Shown piece by piece: positions 12,227-20,022 of a stretch of 64,000 bases of DNA. Both the position numbers and the translations under genes were made by a program. The stretch spans positions 434,001-498,000 of the forward strand of contig NZ_JACBZJ010000001.1 of the NCBI RefSeq assembly GCF_013409305.1, given 5' to 3'. This stretch comes from Cellulomonas soli. Its GTDB lineage: Bacteria > Actinomycetota > Actinomycetes > Actinomycetales > Cellulomonadaceae. Position 1 is the first letter of the stretch. The number at the start of each line of letters is the position of its first letter. The notes beneath the pieces were generated by a model. That model did not search any database. It was not told where the DNA came from and saw nothing but the letters and a program-made list of their open reading frames with translations.

Positions 12227-12301
12227 GTCAGGCGCGCAACGCCGCCCTGCCGTCAGGCGCGCAACGCCGCCCTGCCGTCAGGCGCGCAACGCCGCCGTGC
12301 C
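12227..12301. repeat. Three 25-bp tandem repeats at the gltD 3' end
   Basis: The unit GTCAGGCGCGCAACGCCGCC plus CTGCC occurs at 12227, 12252 and 12277; the last copy has one change (G for C near its end). The copy at 12277 contains the final codons and stop of gltD, so two extra copies of the gene end follow it downstream. The period of 25 does not preserve frame. This looks like replication slippage or a small tandem duplication of the gene terminus. Confidence 0.9.
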
Positions 12302-13750
12302 CGCCCGGATCGGCGAGGGAAGCTCCGTCAGGCCCGACAGGTACGTGTCCACCGACGCGGCCGCGGCACGGCCTTCGGCGATCGCCCACACGATGAGCGA
12401 CTGCCCGCGGCCGGCGTCGCCCGCGACGAACACGCCCGGCACGTCCGTGGCGAAGTCGTCACCGCGGGCCACTGTCCCGCGCGCGGTCGTCGCCACGCCC
12501 AGCTGCTCCAGCAACGGACCCTGCTCGGGGCCGGTGAAGCCCATGGCGAGCAGCACGAGCTGCGCGGGGATCTCCCGCTGCGAACCCTCGACCGGGGTGA
12601 AGCGCCCGTCGACGAGCTCGACCTCGACCAGCTGCAGCGCCCGCACCTGGCCGTCGTCGTCGGCGAGGATCTCCTGGGTGCTGACCGCGTAGACCCGCTC
12701 GCCACCCTCCTCGTGAGCGCTCGCGACGCGGTAGATCATCGGGTAGGTCGGCCACGGCTGCGAGGCCGGACGCTCCTGCGGCGGGCGCGGCATGATCTCC
12801 AGCTGCGTGACCGAGCGGGCCCCCTGCCGGATCGCCGTGCCGACGCAGTCCGCACCGGTGTCGCCGCCGCCGATCACCACGACGTCCTTGTCGGTCGCGA
12901 CGACCTGGTCGACGACCGCCTCGCCCCGCGCGACCTTGTTGGCCGGCACCAGGTACTGCATGGCCTGCAGCACGCCGCCGTGCTCGCGTCCGGGAACCGG
13001 CAGGTCGCGCGGCGTGGTGGAGCCGACCGCGAGCACGACCGCGTCGTAGCGCTCGCGCAGCTGCTGACCGGTGACGTCGGTGCCGACCGCGACACCGTTG
13101 TGGAACCGCGTCCCCTCGGCCTCCATGAGCGCCAGCCGACGGTCGACGTGCCGCTTCTCCATCTTGAACTCGGGGATGCCGTACCGGAGCAGGCCACCCG
13201 GATGGTCCGCCCGCTCGAACACCGCGACGGTGTGCCCGCAGCGCGTCAGCTGCTGCGCCGCGGCGAGCCCGGCGGGCCCGGAACCAACGACGGCGACCGT
13301 CTTGCCGGTCATCCACTGCGGCACCTGCGGCTGCACGAGGCCGCGGTCGAACGCCTCGTCGATGATCGTGACCTCGACGTTCTTGATGGTGATCGGCGGC
13401 TCGTTGATGCCGAGCACGCACGAGGTCTCGCAGGGCGCCGGGCACAGCCGCCCGGTGAACTCCGGGAAGTTGTTCGTCATGTGCAGGCGCTCGATGGCGT
13501 CGGCCCACTGACCGCGCCAGACCAGGTCGTTCCACTCGGGCATGACGTTGCCGAGCGGGCAGCCGTTGTGGCAGAACGGGATCCCGCAGTCCATGCAGCG
13601 GCCGGCCTGGCGGGTGATCATCGCCAGGTCGTCGGGGTTGCCGGCGCGGTGGGCGTGCACCTCGCGCCAGTCCAGGATCCGTACGTCGACGGGTCGGTCC
13701 GCGGGCAGCTCGCGCTGCCGGGTCGTCAGGAACCCTCGGGGGTCTGCCAC
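12278..13750 (-). CDS. gltD: Glutamate synthase small subunit
   Basis: NADPH-dependent glutamate synthase beta subunit, 490 residues, the family's usual length. It passes electrons from NADPH via FAD to the large subunit for glutamine-dependent glutamate synthesis. The GTG at 13750 has a strong AGGAGG 6-8 nt upstream. The N-terminal Fe-S region has CMDCGIPFCHNGCPLGN and CPAPCETSC. The FAD motif is VVGSGPAGLAAAQQL, the NADPH motif is VIGGGDTGADCVG, and GVFVAGDAGRGQSL closes the FAD site. The large subunit gltB, usually directly upstream, is not there: a 226-bp gap and then the glucanase operon lie upstream. Its 3' end is part of a 25-bp tandem repeat. Confidence 0.93.
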   Translation of the reverse strand: MADPRGFLTTRQRELPADRPVDVRILDWREVHAHRAGNPDDLAMITRQAGRCMDCGIPFCHNGCPLGNVMPEWNDLVWRGQWADAIERLHMTNNFPEFTGRLCPAPCETSCVLGINEPPITIKNVEVTIIDEAFDRGLVQPQVPQWMTGKTVAVVGSGPAGLAAAQQLTRCGHTVAVFERADHPGGLLRYGIPEFKMEKRHVDRRLALMEAEGTRFHNGVAVGTDVTGQQLRERYDAVVLAVGSTTPRDLPVPGREHGGVLQAMQYLVPANKVARGEAVVDQVVATDKDVVVIGGGDTGADCVGTAIRQGARSVTQLEIMPRPPQERPASQPWPTYPMIYRVASAHEEGGERVYAVSTQEILADDDGQVRALQLVEVELVDGRFTPVEGSQREIPAQLVLLAMGFTGPEQGPLLEQLGVATTARGTVARGDDFATDVPGVFVAGDAGRGQSLIVWAIAEGRAAAASVDTYLSGLTELPSPIRAGTAALRA

Positions 13751-13976
13751 GTCGCCGCCTCCTCCTGCCGGGCACCTCGCCCGTCCGTGCGCCGAGCGAC
13801 CGGGCCCGACCAGGACGCAGGCTACGGGGGCAGGTCCTGATCGGCCCAGCCGAAGGTCCCGGAACCGGGCACCGCTCGCCGCGCCGACGGCGTCGTCGCA
13901 GGTCAGAAGGGGTGAGGGGCCGCCGCGGGCGGGCACGTCCGCTGCCCGGTGCGTGAGACCGCGCCCTTCGGGGAGC

Positions 13977-16064
13977 TCACCCCGCGCGGGCCGGCGGCGC
14001 CGCGAGCCAGGCCTGCAGGTAGGTGCGCGAGTCCGCGTCGTCGATCGCGTCGTCGGGCAGGTCGGCAGCAGCCAGGGCCGCCGCCTGCGGGTCGACGAGC
14101 GCCAGGTATATCACGAGGTAGTCCCCGAACTGCACGTCGAACCCCGTCGGCGTCGCCTCGGCGACCGCGGCACGCACCTGGTCGGCGTCGGCCGCGAGCA
14201 GGCCGTCGACCGCGGGCATCGGCAGCAGCTGGATGCCCAGCATCGCCGAGGGCTCCGCGCTGAACCACGTCGCGTAGTCCCGCTTGGCGCCCCAGGACAG
14301 TGCCATCACCCGGTGCTCGAACCCCTGGGACGTGAGCCAGGACAGGTCGGGTTCGGTCCAGTACGCCCGCGCGCTGAACGCCTCGAGCGAGAGCAGCCAG
14401 GCGGCCTGCGTCCCCAGGTCGTCCTGCCCGCTCGCGCGCGCCCACAGACCCAGACCGTTCCAGGCGGAGGTTGCCTCCGCGGTCGACTCCTGGTTGTTCC
14501 CGTCGGCGAAGGGTGCGGTGCCCGAGGCCCACGAGTGCCCGCGGTAGACGTCCACGACCCGCAGCGCCGGGAACCACGCGGAGGCCTGTCCTGCCGCGAT
14601 GTCGAGGGCGAGCAGGTCCATCACGGGTGCCAGGTCGTCGGCCAGCGCCGGGTCGTCGGCGGCCATGAGGCCCGCGGCGCCGAGCAGATACCCGTAGTGG
14701 AAGTGGTGGTCGTTGAACAGCTCGGAGCCGAACGACGGTGTCAGACCGACGACCCCACGGGCGGCCTCGTCGTAGACGAAGCAGCGGGCGTCGCGCCGGG
14801 AGCAGCCGTCGGGCTCGGCCCACTCGCGCAGCGCGGCCTCCACCCGGTCGGCCAGCGAGGCCACCACGTCGTCGGCCCCGAGCGCGCGGCCGAGCGTGAC
14901 CAGCATCGCCGAGCGGTAGAGGGCCTTGCCGCCGAAGTAGGTGTCGGACGGGTAGGCACCCGTCGCGGCGACATCGGTGCGCAGCTGGTCCACGAGGGCG
15001 GCCCGGGTCGACCCGTCGACCCCGGCGACGTCGGGCGCCGCGGTCGGGGTGAGCGCCGGCACGCGGGTCACCAGGTCCGGCCCCGGGCAGAGCGTGAGGG
15101 TGCCGTACACGCTCGGATAGGTGCCCAGGTCGCAGCCACCGGTCGGCATGGCGCCTGCGGCGACGTGGTGCGGCATGGCGGCGAGCACGGTCGGCGTCCC
15201 GTCGGCGGTCGCGTAGCGCAGCGTCGTGCGGGCGACGCCGTCGCCCACGCCGTAGGTCACGGCCGTGCTCGTCACCGGGTCGGCGGCGGCTGCCGCGAGC
15301 ACCGCGAGCGCCTCGGTGCCGGCGTCGTCGGGCAGCGGGTACACGGTGGCGCGCCCCCCGGCCTCGAGCGTGACCCGACGACCGTCGAGCTCCCCCGTGG
15401 TCACCAGCGCCCAGGTGCGGCCGGCGACCTCGACCGTCGCCGGGTCCTGCGCGGTGCCCGCACCGTCGGCGAACGCGACGTCGGTCGTGAGGGTCAGACC
15501 CTGCTCGGCCGTGAACGCCACGAACGGCGAGCCCTCGGCGATCACGAGCCGCCCGAGCGGCGTGCCGGACGCATCGAGCTGGTCGATCGTCACCGACGCG
15601 GTGTCGTAGGCGCTCACGCGCGCCGAGCGGGCACCGGCGTCCATCGTCACCGCCGGCACGTGCGGGCCGACGACCGCGGCCGCGGACACGACCGGGTCGG
15701 GGAGCCCGACCGACCAGCCGCCGTCCGCGAGCGCGAACGAGACGGGCAGCGCGAACACCGGCTCGGGGTCCTGACCGAAGACCAGCCCGCTGAACCACCG
15801 GTTCGTCGGTGGGACCAGGCCGTCGGCGAGCCGCGCCGGGCCGAGGTCGCCCGGCGAGCCGTGGTCGACCGCGGCCACGAGCGTCTCGGCATCCAGGTCG
15901 GGCGGGTCCGCGTCCGGCGGGTCGCCCGACCCGAGGCCGACCACGCCGGATCCCGGGTCGCCCGGGTCCCCGCCGGTCACGCCGGGGAGGGCCAGCGCGG
16001 CGACCGCGGCACCGCTCACGAGCACCGCCGCCGCGCCGCACGCGACCAGCAGGCCGCGCCTCAT
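13977..16064 (-). CDS. GH81 endo-beta-1,3-glucanase
   Basis: Predicted exported glycoside hydrolase family 81 enzyme, 695 residues. The chosen ATG at 16064 overlaps the stop of the upstream gene (ATGA); a GTG at 16073 is the alternative. A signal peptide or anchor covers about residues 3-28 (RRGLLVACGAAAVLVSGAAV), followed by a Gly/Pro/Asp-rich spacer. PPTNRWFSGLVFG marks the N-terminal GH81 domain. The catalytic region GHSWASG and GNNQESTAEATSAWNG near residue 520 carries the family's acid residues. It is the third gene of an operon with a processive glycosyltransferase and a membrane-fusion-like protein. Co-expression with a synthase suggests editing or release of a beta-1,3-glucan, much as GH8 enzymes accompany cellulose synthases, in addition to possible nutritional use. 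Confidence 0.85.
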   Translation of the reverse strand: MRRGLLVACGAAAVLVSGAAVAALALPGVTGGDPGDPGSGVVGLGSGDPPDADPPDLDAETLVAAVDHGSPGDLGPARLADGLVPPTNRWFSGLVFGQDPEPVFALPVSFALADGGWSVGLPDPVVSAAAVVGPHVPAVTMDAGARSARVSAYDTASVTIDQLDASGTPLGRLVIAEGSPFVAFTAEQGLTLTTDVAFADGAGTAQDPATVEVAGRTWALVTTGELDGRRVTLEAGGRATVYPLPDDAGTEALAVLAAAAADPVTSTAVTYGVGDGVARTTLRYATADGTPTVLAAMPHHVAAGAMPTGGCDLGTYPSVYGTLTLCPGPDLVTRVPALTPTAAPDVAGVDGSTRAALVDQLRTDVAATGAYPSDTYFGGKALYRSAMLVTLGRALGADDVVASLADRVEAALREWAEPDGCSRRDARCFVYDEAARGVVGLTPSFGSELFNDHHFHYGYLLGAAGLMAADDPALADDLAPVMDLLALDIAAGQASAWFPALRVVDVYRGHSWASGTAPFADGNNQESTAEATSAWNGLGLWARASGQDDLGTQAAWLLSLEAFSARAYWTEPDLSWLTSQGFEHRVMALSWGAKRDYATWFSAEPSAMLGIQLLPMPAVDGLLAADADQVRAAVAEATPTGFDVQFGDYLVIYLALVDPQAAALAAADLPDDAIDDADSRTYLQAWLAAPPARAG

Positions 16065-16804
16065 CCGCGCCACCGCTCCCAGAGGGTGTGCACGGAGGCG
16101 GTGACCTCGTCGGTCACCGCGCTGACCACGCCGCTACGGCGCAGGTGCAGCTCGGCGTCGACGGGTGTGCCGGGGGCGACCAGCCCGTCGGCGGCGCCCC
16201 GGACGAGCCGGGCGCTGCCCACGGTGACGACGGCCTGCGCCACGCCGCCCGAGGACTGCACGGTCACGTCCGTGACCTCGCCCTCGATCCGGGTGCCGTC
16301 CGGGAGCGCGACGGTGACGGCGGCGTCGTCCTCCATCCGCGCGTACTGCTCGGGCGACAGCTCGTACTGCGCCGTGACGAAGAGCGTGCCCGCGCGTTCG
16401 ACCGTGGCCAGGACCGCGCCCGCCTGCACGAACGAGCCCGTGGTGGTGCGCAGGTCGGCGACGACCCCGTCGCCCGTGGCGGTGACGGTCAGCAGCCCGC
16501 TGGCGTCGATGGTCGCCGCGGACGTGTCGGGGTCGACCAGCCCGGCGGCGACGTCCTGGCGCAGGGCCGCGCTGTCGACGACGACGAGCGTGTCCCCTTC
16601 GGCGACCGTGTCGCCGACCGCCACGGGCTGCTCGACGACGAGCCCGGCGTAGGAGGTGCCCACGTCGTAGGTGAGCGTCCCGATCGACGCTTCCGTGCTG
16701 GCCACCCGGGCCTGCGCACGGTCGAGGTGCACCGTCAGGGCGGCCACCGCCGCGAGCACGAGCAGCAGCCCGAGCAGCAGCCGCAGCCGCGCGACGGCGG
16801 TCAT
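16061..16804 (-). CDS. Membrane-anchored HlyD-like protein with lipoyl-type hairpin
   Basis: 247 residues. One N-terminal membrane segment (residues 6-25, rich in Leu/Ala) is followed by an extracytoplasmic part. This contains a biotinyl-lipoyl-like region, GLVVEQPVAVGDTVAEGDTL, and a second half VTATGDGVVADLRTTTGSFV, the split-hairpin pattern of periplasmic adaptor/membrane-fusion proteins. Start and stop overlap its neighbours by 4 bp on both sides. There is no coiled-coil hairpin of the usual length, so it is a short version. In this operon it probably links the glucan synthase to the cell-envelope part of export (inference). Confidence 0.7.
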   Translation of the reverse strand: MTAVARLRLLLGLLLVLAAVAALTVHLDRAQARVASTEASIGTLTYDVGTSYAGLVVEQPVAVGDTVAEGDTLVVVDSAALRQDVAAGLVDPDTSAATIDASGLLTVTATGDGVVADLRTTTGSFVQAGAVLATVERAGTLFVTAQYELSPEQYARMEDDAAVTVALPDGTRIEGEVTDVTVQSSGGVAQAVVTVGSARLVRGAADGLVAPGTPVDAELHLRRSGVVSAVTDEVTASVHTLWERWRG

Positions 16805-18540
16805 GCCGCCCCCTCACGGGCGGCGACCAGCGCCGGACGCCTCGGCGCACGCGCACGGCGTGGGCCGTCGGGTGCCGCCGTGCGACGCGCCTGCCGGGCC
16901 TGCTGGGTCCGCCGGGCCTGCGCTGCCGTCCTCCTCTGCTCGCGCGCCGCCGTGACGACGAAGGAGCCGAGGATCAGTGCGTTGGTCGTGTTCCAGGCGA
17001 GCGCGAGGCTGAGCGTCCCGGTGCCCAGGTCACGCCAGAGCCCGACGACCGAGGTGAGGGACAGGAAGACGAAGAAGAGCACCTGGGGTGCGATGAACGC
17101 GAACGGGGAGACGGCGACCCCCTTGCGGCCCGTCACGTGCCAGCCCTTCTCGCGACGCAGCAGGGCGTCGACGAACGCACGGGCGTAGATCGGGAACGAG
17201 ACGGTGGCGAGCATGAGGGTCTCCCACCGGAACGTGCCGAGCGTGTAGAGGGCCAGGGCGATCTGCATGACGTAGAACCCGGCGTAGTAGAGGATCCAGG
17301 TGCCGGTCGAGGTGTCGATGGCCATCGGCGAGAGGCCGAAGTAGATCTGCAGCGGCGGGACGAGCAGCAGCAGGAGCGGGGTGATGCCCGTCAGGTAGTG
17401 CGTGGCGGTCACCGTGTACTGCAGCCGCTGGTCGAGCGTGAGCGTGCGGCGCCGCGACAGCGGGTTGTGCGTGAGCAGGATCTCGAAGCCGCCGGTGGCC
17501 CAGCGCTGCTGCTGCTTGGTGTAGGCCTCGATGGTCTCGGGGGTGTCGCCGACGGCGAGCGGCGTGGGGATGTAGACCGACCGCCAGCCGCGTTCGTGCA
17601 GCAGCAGCGAGGTCCAGACGTCCTCCGACTTGGAGTCGGTGTACATGCCGCCGATGTCCTCGATCGCGCTGCGGCGAAAGATGACGTTGGTGCCGACGCA
17701 GAAGGCCGCGTTGAACCGGTTCCGGCCCGGTTGGACGTACCGGTAGAACACGGCCTGCATGTACCCGGCGCCGCGCGAGATCAGGTTGTGCAGGTTGCCG
17801 TAGACCTGCGGGGTCTGCACGAACGCGACGTCGGTGGAGGCGAAGAAGGGCAGGGTCTCGCGCAGGAAGGCCGGGTCGGCGACGAAGTCGGCGTCGAGGA
17901 TGACGAAGAACTCCCCGTGCGTGAGCGAGAGCGCGTGGTTGACGTTCCCGGCCTTCGCCCCGCCGGAGGAGCGCCGACGCACGTACCGCACGCCGAGCTC
18001 GGCGGCGAGGTCCCGGATCTCGTCGGAGCGTCCGTCGTCGAGGACCCAGGTCAGGTGCGCGCCCTCGATGTCGCGGGCGGCCTCGAGCGTGCGGCGCACG
18101 ACCTGCGGGTCCTCGCCGTAGGTGGTGACGAACACGTCGACGTCGACGTACCGGTCGAGCAGGTAGGGCCGCCAGCGGCGCGGGTCGTCGCCGGCGCCGT
18201 CGCGCAGGATCTCGGGGGCGTCGAAGAGCCGGTCCTGCGCGTGGTGGAACGCGAACCCGCGCGGGTTGTGCCCGGCGGACATGATCGTCCACATCGACAG
18301 CAGCGCCTGGGCGACGAGCACGGTCTCCGCGGACATCACCATGAGGTACGGGACGAGGTCCCCGCGGTGGTCGGGGTCGAGCAGGAACGCGGCGTAGGCG
18401 AGCACTCCCGCGCTGGCGAGCAGCACGAGCAGCATGAGCGAGGGGGACTCGGCGGCGGAGTCGTCGGGGCGGGCGCCCGAGCGCGGGTCGTCGGTGCGCC
18501 GGGGGGTCGTGAGCAGTCGGTCGACATCGGTGAGGGTCAT
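16801..18540 (-). CDS. Processive family 2 glycosyltransferase, cellulose/curdlan synthase-like
   Basis: Membrane synthase of 579 residues. ATG at 18540 with GGAG about 6 nt upstream. Two helices flank residues 35-85, then the cytoplasmic GT-A domain: DD168-169 in VLDDGR, GGAKAGN at 193-199, DAD at 216-218, TNVIFRR, ED at 306-307 and Q343-QQRW. These are the D,D,D,Q-x-x-R-W residues of processive beta-glycan synthases. Several helices follow residue 370. There is no C-terminal PilZ domain, so direct c-di-GMP control of BcsA type is not evident. The C-terminal 45 residues form a basic Arg/Ala-rich tail. Because the operon partner is a beta-1,3-glucanase, the product may be a (1,3)-beta-glucan such as curdlan instead of cellulose (inference). 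Confidence 0.85.
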   Translation of the reverse strand: MTLTDVDRLLTTPRRTDDPRSGARPDDSAAESPSLMLLVLLASAGVLAYAAFLLDPDHRGDLVPYLMVMSAETVLVAQALLSMWTIMSAGHNPRGFAFHHAQDRLFDAPEILRDGAGDDPRRWRPYLLDRYVDVDVFVTTYGEDPQVVRRTLEAARDIEGAHLTWVLDDGRSDEIRDLAAELGVRYVRRRSSGGAKAGNVNHALSLTHGEFFVILDADFVADPAFLRETLPFFASTDVAFVQTPQVYGNLHNLISRGAGYMQAVFYRYVQPGRNRFNAAFCVGTNVIFRRSAIEDIGGMYTDSKSEDVWTSLLLHERGWRSVYIPTPLAVGDTPETIEAYTKQQQRWATGGFEILLTHNPLSRRRTLTLDQRLQYTVTATHYLTGITPLLLLLVPPLQIYFGLSPMAIDTSTGTWILYYAGFYVMQIALALYTLGTFRWETLMLATVSFPIYARAFVDALLRREKGWHVTGRKGVAVSPFAFIAPQVLFFVFLSLTSVVGLWRDLGTGTLSLALAWNTTNALILGSFVVTAAREQRRTAAQARRTQQARQARRTAAPDGPRRARAPRRPALVAAREGAA

Positions 18541-18712
18541 CGCAGCTCCCTGGAGGAGGGGGGCGGGGCGCTCGCACGGTGGGGCTGGCGGCGGGTGCGC
18601 GACGGCGGCGATGGCGGCGGCGACGAGTTCCCGGCATCTCGGACGAACCGGATCAAGGGGACGTTCCACGCCGACGGTACGAGCGGTGTGTGTCGACCAG
18701 ATGAACGCCGCG

Positions 18713-18728
18713 TGTGACCTAGGTCACG
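18713..18728. promoter_or_regulatory. CRP/GlxR-type cAMP-receptor site between glucan operon and MFS gene
   Basis: TGTGACCTAGGTCACG contains a perfect 14-bp palindrome GTGACCTAGGTCAC (18714-18727). It fits TGTGA-N6-TCACA with one end mismatch, and the central CC-TA-GG matches the actinobacterial GlxR preference. It lies in the 285-bp divergent region, 173 bp from the synthase start and about 98 bp from the MFS start, so it could act on either promoter. Confidence 0.6.
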
Positions 18729-18825
18729 ATCGAGCGCGTCATGGCGCGCGTGCACCAGGCCCCGCGGCACGCCATCGTGGACGGCGCGTGCGCCGCCCGC
18801 TCGCGCCCGACGAGTCAGGAGCCGC

Positions 18826-20022
18826 ATGCAGGACCCCGCTCCTCCCCCCGTTCCCGCAGCCGCCCCGGCAGCGCCGCGCACCCTCGCACCGCTCTACGCC
18901 GCCGGCTTCACCACGGCCTTCGGCGCCCACGGCGTCGCAGCCGCCATCGGCGCCCGCTCGGACGACCTCGGCCTCGCCCTGCTCACCTTCGGGCTGCTGC
19001 TGGCCGTCTACGACCTCGCCGAGGTCGTCCTCAAACCCGTCTTCGGCTCGTGGGCCGACCGCATCGGCATCCGCCCCGTGCTCGTCGGCGGGCTGCTCGC
19101 CTTCGCCGCGGCCTCGCTCGTCGCGGTCGGCTCGAGCGACCCGCTCGTCGTCGGTGCGGCACGGCTCGGCCAGGGGGCCGCGGCCGCGGCGTTCTCCCCC
19201 GCCGCCTCGGCGGCCGTCGCACGACTGACCGGACCGTCGACCCGCGGTCGCACCTTCGGTCGGTACGGGTCGTGGAAGAGCCTCGGCTACGCGCTGGGGC
19301 CGCTGCTCGGCGCCGGCCTCGTCGCGCTCGGCGGGCTGCCCGCCCTGTTCGTCGCGCTCGCCGCGACCGCCCTGGTCACCGGGCTGTGGGCCCGCGTCGC
19401 CCTGCCGGAGCTCCCCGTGCTGCCCCGCCCCCGCTACACCGTGCGCGACCTGCTGCGGCAGACGACCGACCGGGCCTTCCTGGTGCCCACCCTCGCCCTC
19501 GCGGCGACCACCGGCGCCCTGGGGGTGGCCGTCGGCTTCCTGCCCCTGCTGGGGACGCGGCTCGGCGCCGGAGTCCCGACGAGCATGGCCACGGTCACCG
19601 TGCTCGCACTGGCCTCGAGCGCCGTCCAACCCCTCGTGGGCCGGTGGCACGACGAGGGGCGCGTCGGCACGTCCACCGGCACCGCGGGCGGGCTCGTGCT
19701 CGTGGCCGCGGGCCTCGTGCTCGCGGCGCTCGTCCCCGGTGTCGCGGGGCTGTTCGCGGCCGCAGCCGTCCTCGGCACGGGCATCGGTACGACCACCCCG
19801 CTCGCCTTCGCGCACCTGGCCGCCACCACGCCGCACGAGCGGATGGGGCGGACCATGGGCAGCGCCGACGTCGGGCGCGAGCTCGGCGACGCCGGGGCAC
19901 CGCTCCTCGTCGGCGCCGTCGCGACCGTGGCCTCACCCGCCGCCGGGATCCTCGTGCTCGCCACGCTCGTGGCGGGCACCGCCGCGGTGTGCCGCACCTC
20001 GCTGCGCACACCCCCGCACTGA
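18826..20022 (+). CDS. MFS transporter
   Basis: Major facilitator of 398 residues with about twelve membrane helices. ATG preceded by CAGGAGCCGC. The loop 2-3 motif is GSWADRIGIRPVL near residue 75. RGRTFGRYGSWKSLGYALGP follows in the middle, and the repeat pattern of the second half is complete. The N-terminal 20 residues are Pro/Ala-rich and cytoplasmic. It reads like a drug/metabolite efflux-type MFS, but the substrate is not recognisable. It diverges from the glucan synthase operon. Confidence 0.8.
   Translation: MQDPAPPPVPAAAPAAPRTLAPLYAAGFTTAFGAHGVAAAIGARSDDLGLALLTFGLLLAVYDLAEVVLKPVFGSWADRIGIRPVLVGGLLAFAAASLVAVGSSDPLVVGAARLGQGAAAAAFSPAASAAVARLTGPSTRGRTFGRYGSWKSLGYALGPLLGAGLVALGGLPALFVALAATALVTGLWARVALPELPVLPRPRYTVRDLLRQTTDRAFLVPTLALAATTGALGVAVGFLPLLGTRLGAGVPTSMATVTVLALASSAVQPLVGRWHDEGRVGTSTGTAGGLVLVAAGLVLAALVPGVAGLFAAAAVLGTGIGTTTPLAFAHLAATTPHERMGRTMGSADVGRELGDAGAPLLVGAVATVASPAAGILVLATLVAGTAAVCRTSLRTPPH

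Follow-up and report, generated by a model that had tools for sequence, protein, structure and literature searches.

Which polymer is made by a bacterium that couples a processive sugar polymerase to a beta-1,3-glucanase is the question raised by three adjoining minus-strand genes of Cellulomonas soli, found in a 64,000-nucleotide stretch of contig NZ_JACBZJ010000001.1 (positions 434,001 to 498,000; hereafter the window). The genes encode a putative processive GT2 beta-glucan synthase of 579 amino acids (aa) at 18540-16801, a short HlyD-like membrane-fusion protein of 247 aa at 16804-16061, and a predicted GH81 endo-beta-1,3-glucanase of 695 aa at 16064-13977. We consider it reasonably probable that they form a synthase-dependent exopolysaccharide operon making a curdlan-like (1,3)-beta-glucan, with export and editing functions, built around a separate GT2 lineage.

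An earlier note on this DNA had described a GT2, a short HlyD-like protein and a GH81 joined by 4-bp overlaps, and coordinates and Pfam matches bear the description out. ATGA overlaps on the minus strand link synthase to HlyD gene (16801..16804) and HlyD gene to GH81 gene (16061..16064), the second requiring that GH81 start at ATG 16064; a start at the possible GTG 16073 would make that overlap 13 bp instead. In Pfam, the synthase matches GT2 families (highest 96.9 bits), its neighbour matches HlyD_3 with 42.1 bits against a cut-off of 22.2, and the third protein matches the GH81 catalytic domain (Glyco_hydro81C) with 167.2 bits against a curated cut-off of 25.6, the GH81 N-terminal domain being placed where expected with a score of 16.4 bits, below its 25.6 cut-off. 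Neither BcsB nor GH8 is found by Pfam among the three genes, the hydrolase being a GH81 rather than a GH8 or GH6. In the genome, a single contig of 4,257,813 bases, one GH81 and one full-length synthase match were found, and three more of its GT2s align partially at 25-29% identity. A scan of 13700-18900 found no sigma-70-type promoter, and two terminator-like sites that both lie within the synthase gene.

A fixed unit of three genes

The association of the three genes was followed across genomes from two starting points. A scan of named genomes with a 22-sequence alignment returned 283 stretches encoding a relative, of which the best 80 were retained and underlie the 80-locus counts given below. 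An HlyD-like gene follows the synthase in all 80, and a GH81 follows in 78, on one strand throughout; the two misses are contigs that terminate 561 and 43 bases past the HlyD gene. With starts picked by script, the synthase and HlyD genes overlap by 4 bp in 70 of the 80 relatives, and the HlyD and GH81 genes do so in 41 of 78. Judged by record titles and tree labels, the loci span Cellulomonadaceae, Promicromonosporaceae, Sanguibacteraceae, Demequinaceae, Beutenbergiaceae, Microbacteriaceae and Nocardioidaceae, together with metagenome bins. Two records with discordant labels are probably mis-binned contigs: a synthase from an Acidobacteria-labelled bin (L057) that nests among Actinomycetota in the tree, and one labelled Brevundimonas (P0254) with 80% identity to the synthase of C. 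persica.

The 80-locus scan had begun from the synthase; a counter-test began from GH81 and searched 121 genomes of the family genome-wide, the genomes of the two tests overlapping in part, so that they differ by method and not entirely by material. GH81 occurs in 61 of the 121 genomes (95 copies), and a synthase of the operon clade in 43 of those 61, with the C. soli genome counted. A GH81 lies 1.7-2.1 kb downstream of the synthase on the same strand in 42 of the 43, and in the single genome without one the synthase sits 820 bases from a contig end. None of 20 genomes tested out of the 60 that lack GH81 holds an operon-clade synthase, three of the 20 holding partial relatives at 30-48% identity. 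An order-level sample of 59 genomes gave the synthase at 58% identity or above in eight, again counting C. soli, and the seven others all have an HlyD gene and at least a partial GH81 beside it. Given the 80-locus and the GH81-first tests, the linkage is not due to chance. Because conservation does not extend to the flanking genes, whose commonest family appears in 27 of 77 loci, the synthase-HlyD-GH81 unit is a fixed, strongly conserved unit of exactly three genes.

Two neighbours in the window were compared with the same loci. Directly downstream, at 12278-13936, lies a gltD-like gene (a pyridine nucleotide-disulphide oxidoreductase with Fer4_20, the name being interpretive); a link to nitrogen metabolism through it was rejected, because a gltD relative occurs in only two loci of the 80, the majority of these spanning 7 kb on each side. 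Upstream of the operon, at 18826-20022, lies a major facilitator superfamily (MFS) transporter gene with a relative in none of the 80. Elsewhere in the order, two genomes (L122, L123) carry the operon duplicated in tandem.

The GH81 enzyme and the HlyD-like protein

The NDHHFHYG and GNNQESTAEA motifs of the window GH81 align with a solved Bacillus enzyme. Asp452 is kept in 79 of 79 operon sequences and Glu526 and Glu530 in 78 of 79 each, residues whose catalytic roles we take from the work on BhGH81. The one exception is the frame-broken gene of Naasia aerilata (L074:9480-11532), a locus counted among the 78 with GH81, in which GH81 is spread over three frames by a frameshift of the gene or of the assembly, the synthase and HlyD frames remaining open. 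The window protein begins with a hydrophobic stretch, as judged by eye, and the N-termini of its 78 relatives comprise 46 with a lipobox after a hydrophobic stretch, 30 with a strong hydrophobic helix and two with neither. By these simple rules, under which a cleavable signal is also possible, the operon GH81 is predicted to be mostly membrane-anchored (76 of 78).

Operon GH81s are about 690 aa long (median 693, n=78), and in a tree built from 26 sequences of each kind, operon and non-operon, one branch (100/100) isolates the operon rows together with four others. The tree drew on 26 of 79 operon rows, and its non-operon set combined 20 chosen from 53 copies with six from named loci, one 323-aa fragment being discarded. 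The remaining 22 non-operon GH81s have open frames of 1,017-1,672 aa; a domain check on six of these longer enzymes found CBM6 with fn3 in one (the L082 copy) and F5/8C in another. The longer GH81s of the same bacterial family thus share the catalytic family, whereas the operon type is shorter, mostly has a predicted lipobox or helix, and forms a separate group. Six loci (L027, L032, L034, L039, L040 and L082) have a further GH81 immediately behind the operon, at about 11.5-15.4 kb, which is longer and belongs to the other group.

The predicted anchor bears on an explanation in which the operon does make a beta-1,3-glucan and the GH81 serves mainly to degrade it later, as a carbon reserve. Such recall would suit C. 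flavigena, whose curdlan is reported to vanish once cells meet sugar-free, nitrogen-rich medium (PMC10819609), and whose way of re-using curdlan is called unclear in PMC3544764. However, the gene overlap would co-express GH81 with the synthase and so make degradation futile, an anchor is predicted for the enzyme in 76 of 78 relatives, and no flanking gene family, the families being counted and not identified, exceeds 27 of 77 loci; we regard storage and recall as the enzyme's main purpose as quite unlikely.

The HlyD-like protein gives a confident predicted model (mean predicted local distance difference test 91.5, predicted template-modelling score 0.76), with a single N-terminal helix, a strand-rich middle and a C-terminal helix, and with no long coiled-coil hairpin. 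A Foldseek search with this model matched ZneB (2.8e-11, TM 0.55), and also MexA, AcrA and BesA. The hairpin may be missing since a Gram-positive cell has no outer membrane to dock to.

Lineage and motifs of the synthase

The window synthase carries D168/D169, D216xD218, SED (D307) and Q343QQRW347. The D,D,D,QQQRW signature claimed in the earlier note is therefore present, and its last element is atypical: D, D, D and QxxRW are invariant in 81 of 81 synthases of the clade, and the variable positions read QQLRW in 72, QQQRW in seven and QQMRW in two. The clade also keeps SED and Tyr247 in 81 of 81, and F(C/S)VGT (V282/T284 in the window enzyme) with C in 72 and S in nine. CrdS has FCVGT, SED and the same Tyr, whereas BcsA has FFCGS, TED and Phe, and BgsA has FCCGS, TED and Phe; SED and V282/T284 are common to the operon clade and CrdS and absent from BgsA and BcsA. 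The gating loop is Wx(V/A)TG rather than FxVTxK (Trp467, Thr470 and Gly471 in 81 of 81), and Pfam gives no PilZ match in the window synthase; control by cyclic di-GMP of the BcsA type is therefore not expected.

Pairwise scores do not single out any characterized relative. In BLAST, the window synthase scores 181 and 166 bits with BcsA (from an E. coli plasmid and Rhizobium, respectively), 175 and 170 with BgsA, 174 with CrdS (34% identity across 395 residues), and 172 and 166 with synthases of a GH8 group. In trees, the operon synthases are monophyletic (98/95 in a first tree, 100/100 in a second) and in both are placed outside the group that contains BcsA, BgsA and CrdS, within which CrdS clusters with BgsA and the GH8-group synthases. 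The outgroups NodC and PgaC fall far from the window synthase in the first tree, where long branches made the placement of NodC, PgaC, a Kocuria sequence and GT2GH26_SmelSM11 unsure; these four were left out of the second, which used 14 of the first tree's 25 operon rows. Neither tree included clostridial synthases (CcsA among them), streptomycete or hyaluronan synthases, or RiGT2. Because the synthase falls outside the CrdS, BgsA and BcsA clades, homology cannot name its product. For the phylogenetic comparison with CrdS and BcsA that the earlier note had proposed, the outcome is thus divided: the synthase does not cluster with cellulose synthases, and it shows no kinship with CrdS, with which it scores 174 bits as against 181 and 166 with BcsA.

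Could the synthase make another polymer, such as cellulose, the GH81 being an unrelated defensive or digestive passenger? The top score among reference synthases does belong to E. coli BcsA, and TIGR03030 matches with 257 bits, though far below its 699-bit cut-off. A passenger is nevertheless hard to reconcile with a GH81 linkage of 42 of 43 and 78 of 80 across several families, or with operon GH81s that stand apart from the longer GH81s in their tree, and cellulose is hard to reconcile with a synthase that has no PilZ match and a unit with no BcsB or GH8 among its three genes; this explanation is highly improbable.

A closer competitor is a mixed-linkage (1,3;1,4)-beta-glucan with beta-1,3 runs, made in the manner of BgsA or RiGT2, of which the GH81 would trim the beta-1,3 stretches only. 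A GT2-HlyD pair is the arrangement reported for BgsBA (PMC9495663), and the synthase is no nearer to CrdS (174 bits) than to BgsA (170 and 175). Yet it lies outside the BgsA clade, its F(C/S)VGT and SED agree with CrdS where BgsA has FCCGS and TED, and the glucan of BgsA is described as strictly alternating 1,3 and 1,4 bonds (PMC9495663), which a GH81 needing beta-1,3 runs should not cut. Overall, a mixed-linkage product seems unlikely.

Six distant actinobacterial synthases (L116-L121) were excluded from the system, no HlyD or GH81 relative adjoining them in the six regions fetched; nine neighbouring genes scanned, eight of them from these regions, included one GH6 (L119) and one GH26 (L120).

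A proposed curdlan-like system and the evidence for its product

Among the closest known systems is crdASC, for which the reference was a plasmid-borne Agrobacterium locus (L091). Its synthase was accepted as CrdS because gene order and sizes fit crdASC and two residues agree: crdA is 1455 bp in L091 and is given as 1458 bp in PMC10819609, and the protein has Phe at position 3 and Lys at 544, as reported for AtumCrdS (PMC6821405). Both systems combine an HlyD-like protein (HlyD_3 above the 22.2 cut-off in each, at 23.9 bits for CrdA and 42.1 for the window protein), a GT2 with SED and F(C/S)VGT, and a third protein with an (alpha/alpha)6 toroid, which is predicted for CrdC and expected by family for GH81, whose fold is of this kind (PMC8949617). 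They differ in that CrdA, at 484 aa, is twice the length of the window HlyD-like protein, the order is A-S-C as against synthase-HlyD-GH81, the gating loop here is WxVTG instead of FxVTxK, and the third gene of crdASC encodes CrdC, which has no Pfam GH81 match, in place of a GH81. The toroid predicted for CrdC (L091:6704-7984; P0132) is found in many glycosidases, and by sequence against solved structures CrdC weakly matches a beta-1,2-glucanase (E 0.0027). Because terpene cyclases also appear among its fold matches, the fold by itself is not enough to class CrdC as a glycosidase; the lack of any GH81 structure among the 50 matches listed is not counted as evidence. In sum, the unit works on the lines of crdASC, yet neither the clade of its synthase nor its third gene places it in that system.

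Other synthase operons share fewer of these features. The bgsBA genes of Sinorhizobium meliloti (L087) likewise pair a GT2 without a PilZ match with an HlyD-like partner, but BgsA belongs to another GT2 clade and has TED and FCCGS, the HlyD protein is longer, and the 3.8 kb that make up L087 contain no hydrolase. In bcs, with the GH8 enzyme BcsZ, and in clostridial ccsZABHI, with the GH5 enzyme CcsZ, a GT2 synthase is accompanied by a cognate endo-glucanase (PMC7710045), as here; the hydrolases are nevertheless of families other than GH81, Bcs has PilZ and BcsB, and the window synthase falls outside the BcsA clade. Two further plasmid loci were seen: a GH8-HlyD-GT2 operon of Pacificitalea manganoxidans (L092:2275-6644) forms a three-gene system in parallel, its hydrolase being of cellulase type, and a highly divergent GT2 of S. 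meliloti SM11 (L105:2201-5650), accompanied by a GH26 gene and DUF995 genes, is perhaps part of another synthase-hydrolase pair.

The case for a (1,3)-beta-glucan is made through the hydrolase: the best available pointer to the product is the pairing with a GH81 whose catalytic residues are kept and which is mostly predicted to be anchored. A beta-1,3 product is inferred because the cognate hydrolase is a GH81, and reading a polymer from its hydrolase has a precedent in CcsZ (PMC7710045). In the mechanism that we favour, the membrane GT2 would polymerise UDP-glucose at the cytoplasmic side and pass the chain along its own channel; the HlyD-like protein, with its one span and no hairpin, would sit at the channel exit on the outer face, guiding or stabilising the chain; and the GH81, anchored as a lipoprotein or by its N-terminal helix, would cut tangled or stalled beta-1,3 chains and free the polymer. 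Such an editing role is the one proposed for GH8 BcsZ in cellulose synthesis and for GH5 CcsZ in Clostridia. Agreement of the active-site motifs with CrdS is suggestive only. A broader proposal, that Actinomycetota possess a widespread system for (1,3)-beta-glucan whose beta-1,3 specificity arose apart from CrdS but whose parts (synthase, HlyD adaptor and a protein of (alpha/alpha)6 glucanase fold) are those of crdASC, is put forward tentatively, its chances being somewhat below even.

Several observations weigh against a curdlan-like product. CrdS-clade membership is ruled out by the two trees, in neither of which the synthase is a member of that clade. The motif agreement is held to be only suggestive because exclusive matches over all operon-conserved residues do not favour CrdS (CrdS 4, BgsA 8, BcsA 10, GH8 group 4); nor do these counts support the whole-residue signature as evidence for a beta-1,3 product. 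When each group was represented by a single sequence, the three sets tried yielded 14, 13 and 11 matches for CrdS, 10, 9 and 10 for BgsA, and 14, 22 and 14 for BcsA, and Tyr247 also occurs in three of the six distant actinobacterial synthases (L116, L118 and L121). Reading the polymer from the hydrolase is itself unsafe, because the activity of CcsZ on mixed-linkage beta-glucan is reported to exceed that on carboxymethyl cellulose 5-fold (PMC7710045), and C. ventriculi, cited in that paper as a cellulose maker, is reported actually to yield a (1,3;1,4)-glucan (PMC10374906).

The linkage, too, has exceptions on this side of the balance. Four genomes keep an operon-type GH81 (L145:8703-10673, L146:8404-10374, L147:8619-10784 and L148:8806-10779) with no relative of synthase or HlyD in a fetched region of 19 kb; nor does a genome-wide search at E 1e-40 match a synthase. 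These GH81s are the four non-operon sequences on the operon side of the tree, nested among operon GH81s, and the regional G+C is 56-60%. Nine neighbours scanned in three of the four comprise a luciferase-like monooxygenase (L145), VanY peptidases (L145, L148), xanthine/uracil permeases (L145, L147), an MFS transporter and genes without a match. An operon-type GH81 is thus able to exist without the synthase. Conversely, the second synthase-HlyD pair of L123, adjoining the complete operon, has no GH81 of its own; an EamA-like gene follows it, and the synthase of this pair has a frame of about 1,100 aa.

Reported phenotypes add to these difficulties. Curdlan-type polymers are attributed to Cellulomonas in papers cited by PMC3544764 and PMC3035266, a connection on which the earlier note had drawn and which is contradicted at face value by C. 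gelida: the species is reported to make no curdlan exopolysaccharide (PMC3035266), and it carries the complete operon (L029). No entry among the best 80 loci or in two best-120 lists could be recognised as C. flavigena, which is reported to produce curdlan, though lists cut in this way do not show its absence. Staining can also mislead, because native Cellulomonas curdlan is reported to take aniline blue only after alkaline extraction (PMC10819609). The available part of PMC3544764 names only GT2 genes, at 35-39% identity to CrdS, as candidates, lists Cfla_3154 and Cfla_2615 of C. flavigena as CrdS-like, and mentions GH81 once, under beta-glucan degradation. A search of literature on curdlan synthase, GH81 and Cellulomonas, with subscription journals mostly outside its reach, found no published account of such an operon among the papers listed. 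The step from GH81 pairing to (1,3)-beta-glucan made in the earlier note is partly supported: the conserved unit, the retained catalytic residues and the predicted anchors are on its side, and the synthase, no closer to CrdS than to BcsA or BgsA, adds nothing to it.

What the unit offers is a concrete candidate for curdlan genes in several families of Actinomycetota, with the GH81 usable as a probe of the product. If the beta-1,3 specificity did arise apart from CrdS, a dedicated editor of beta-1,3-glucan would be general in curdlan synthesis, and CrdC would fill that role in Agrobacterium. If a curdlan-like product is right, the operon would also supply a second lineage of enzymes for studying the choice that GT2 synthases make between 1,3 and 1,4 bonds. 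Genes for beta-1,3-glucan would then have a new source, and the functions of CrdA and CrdC a hypothesis to explain them.

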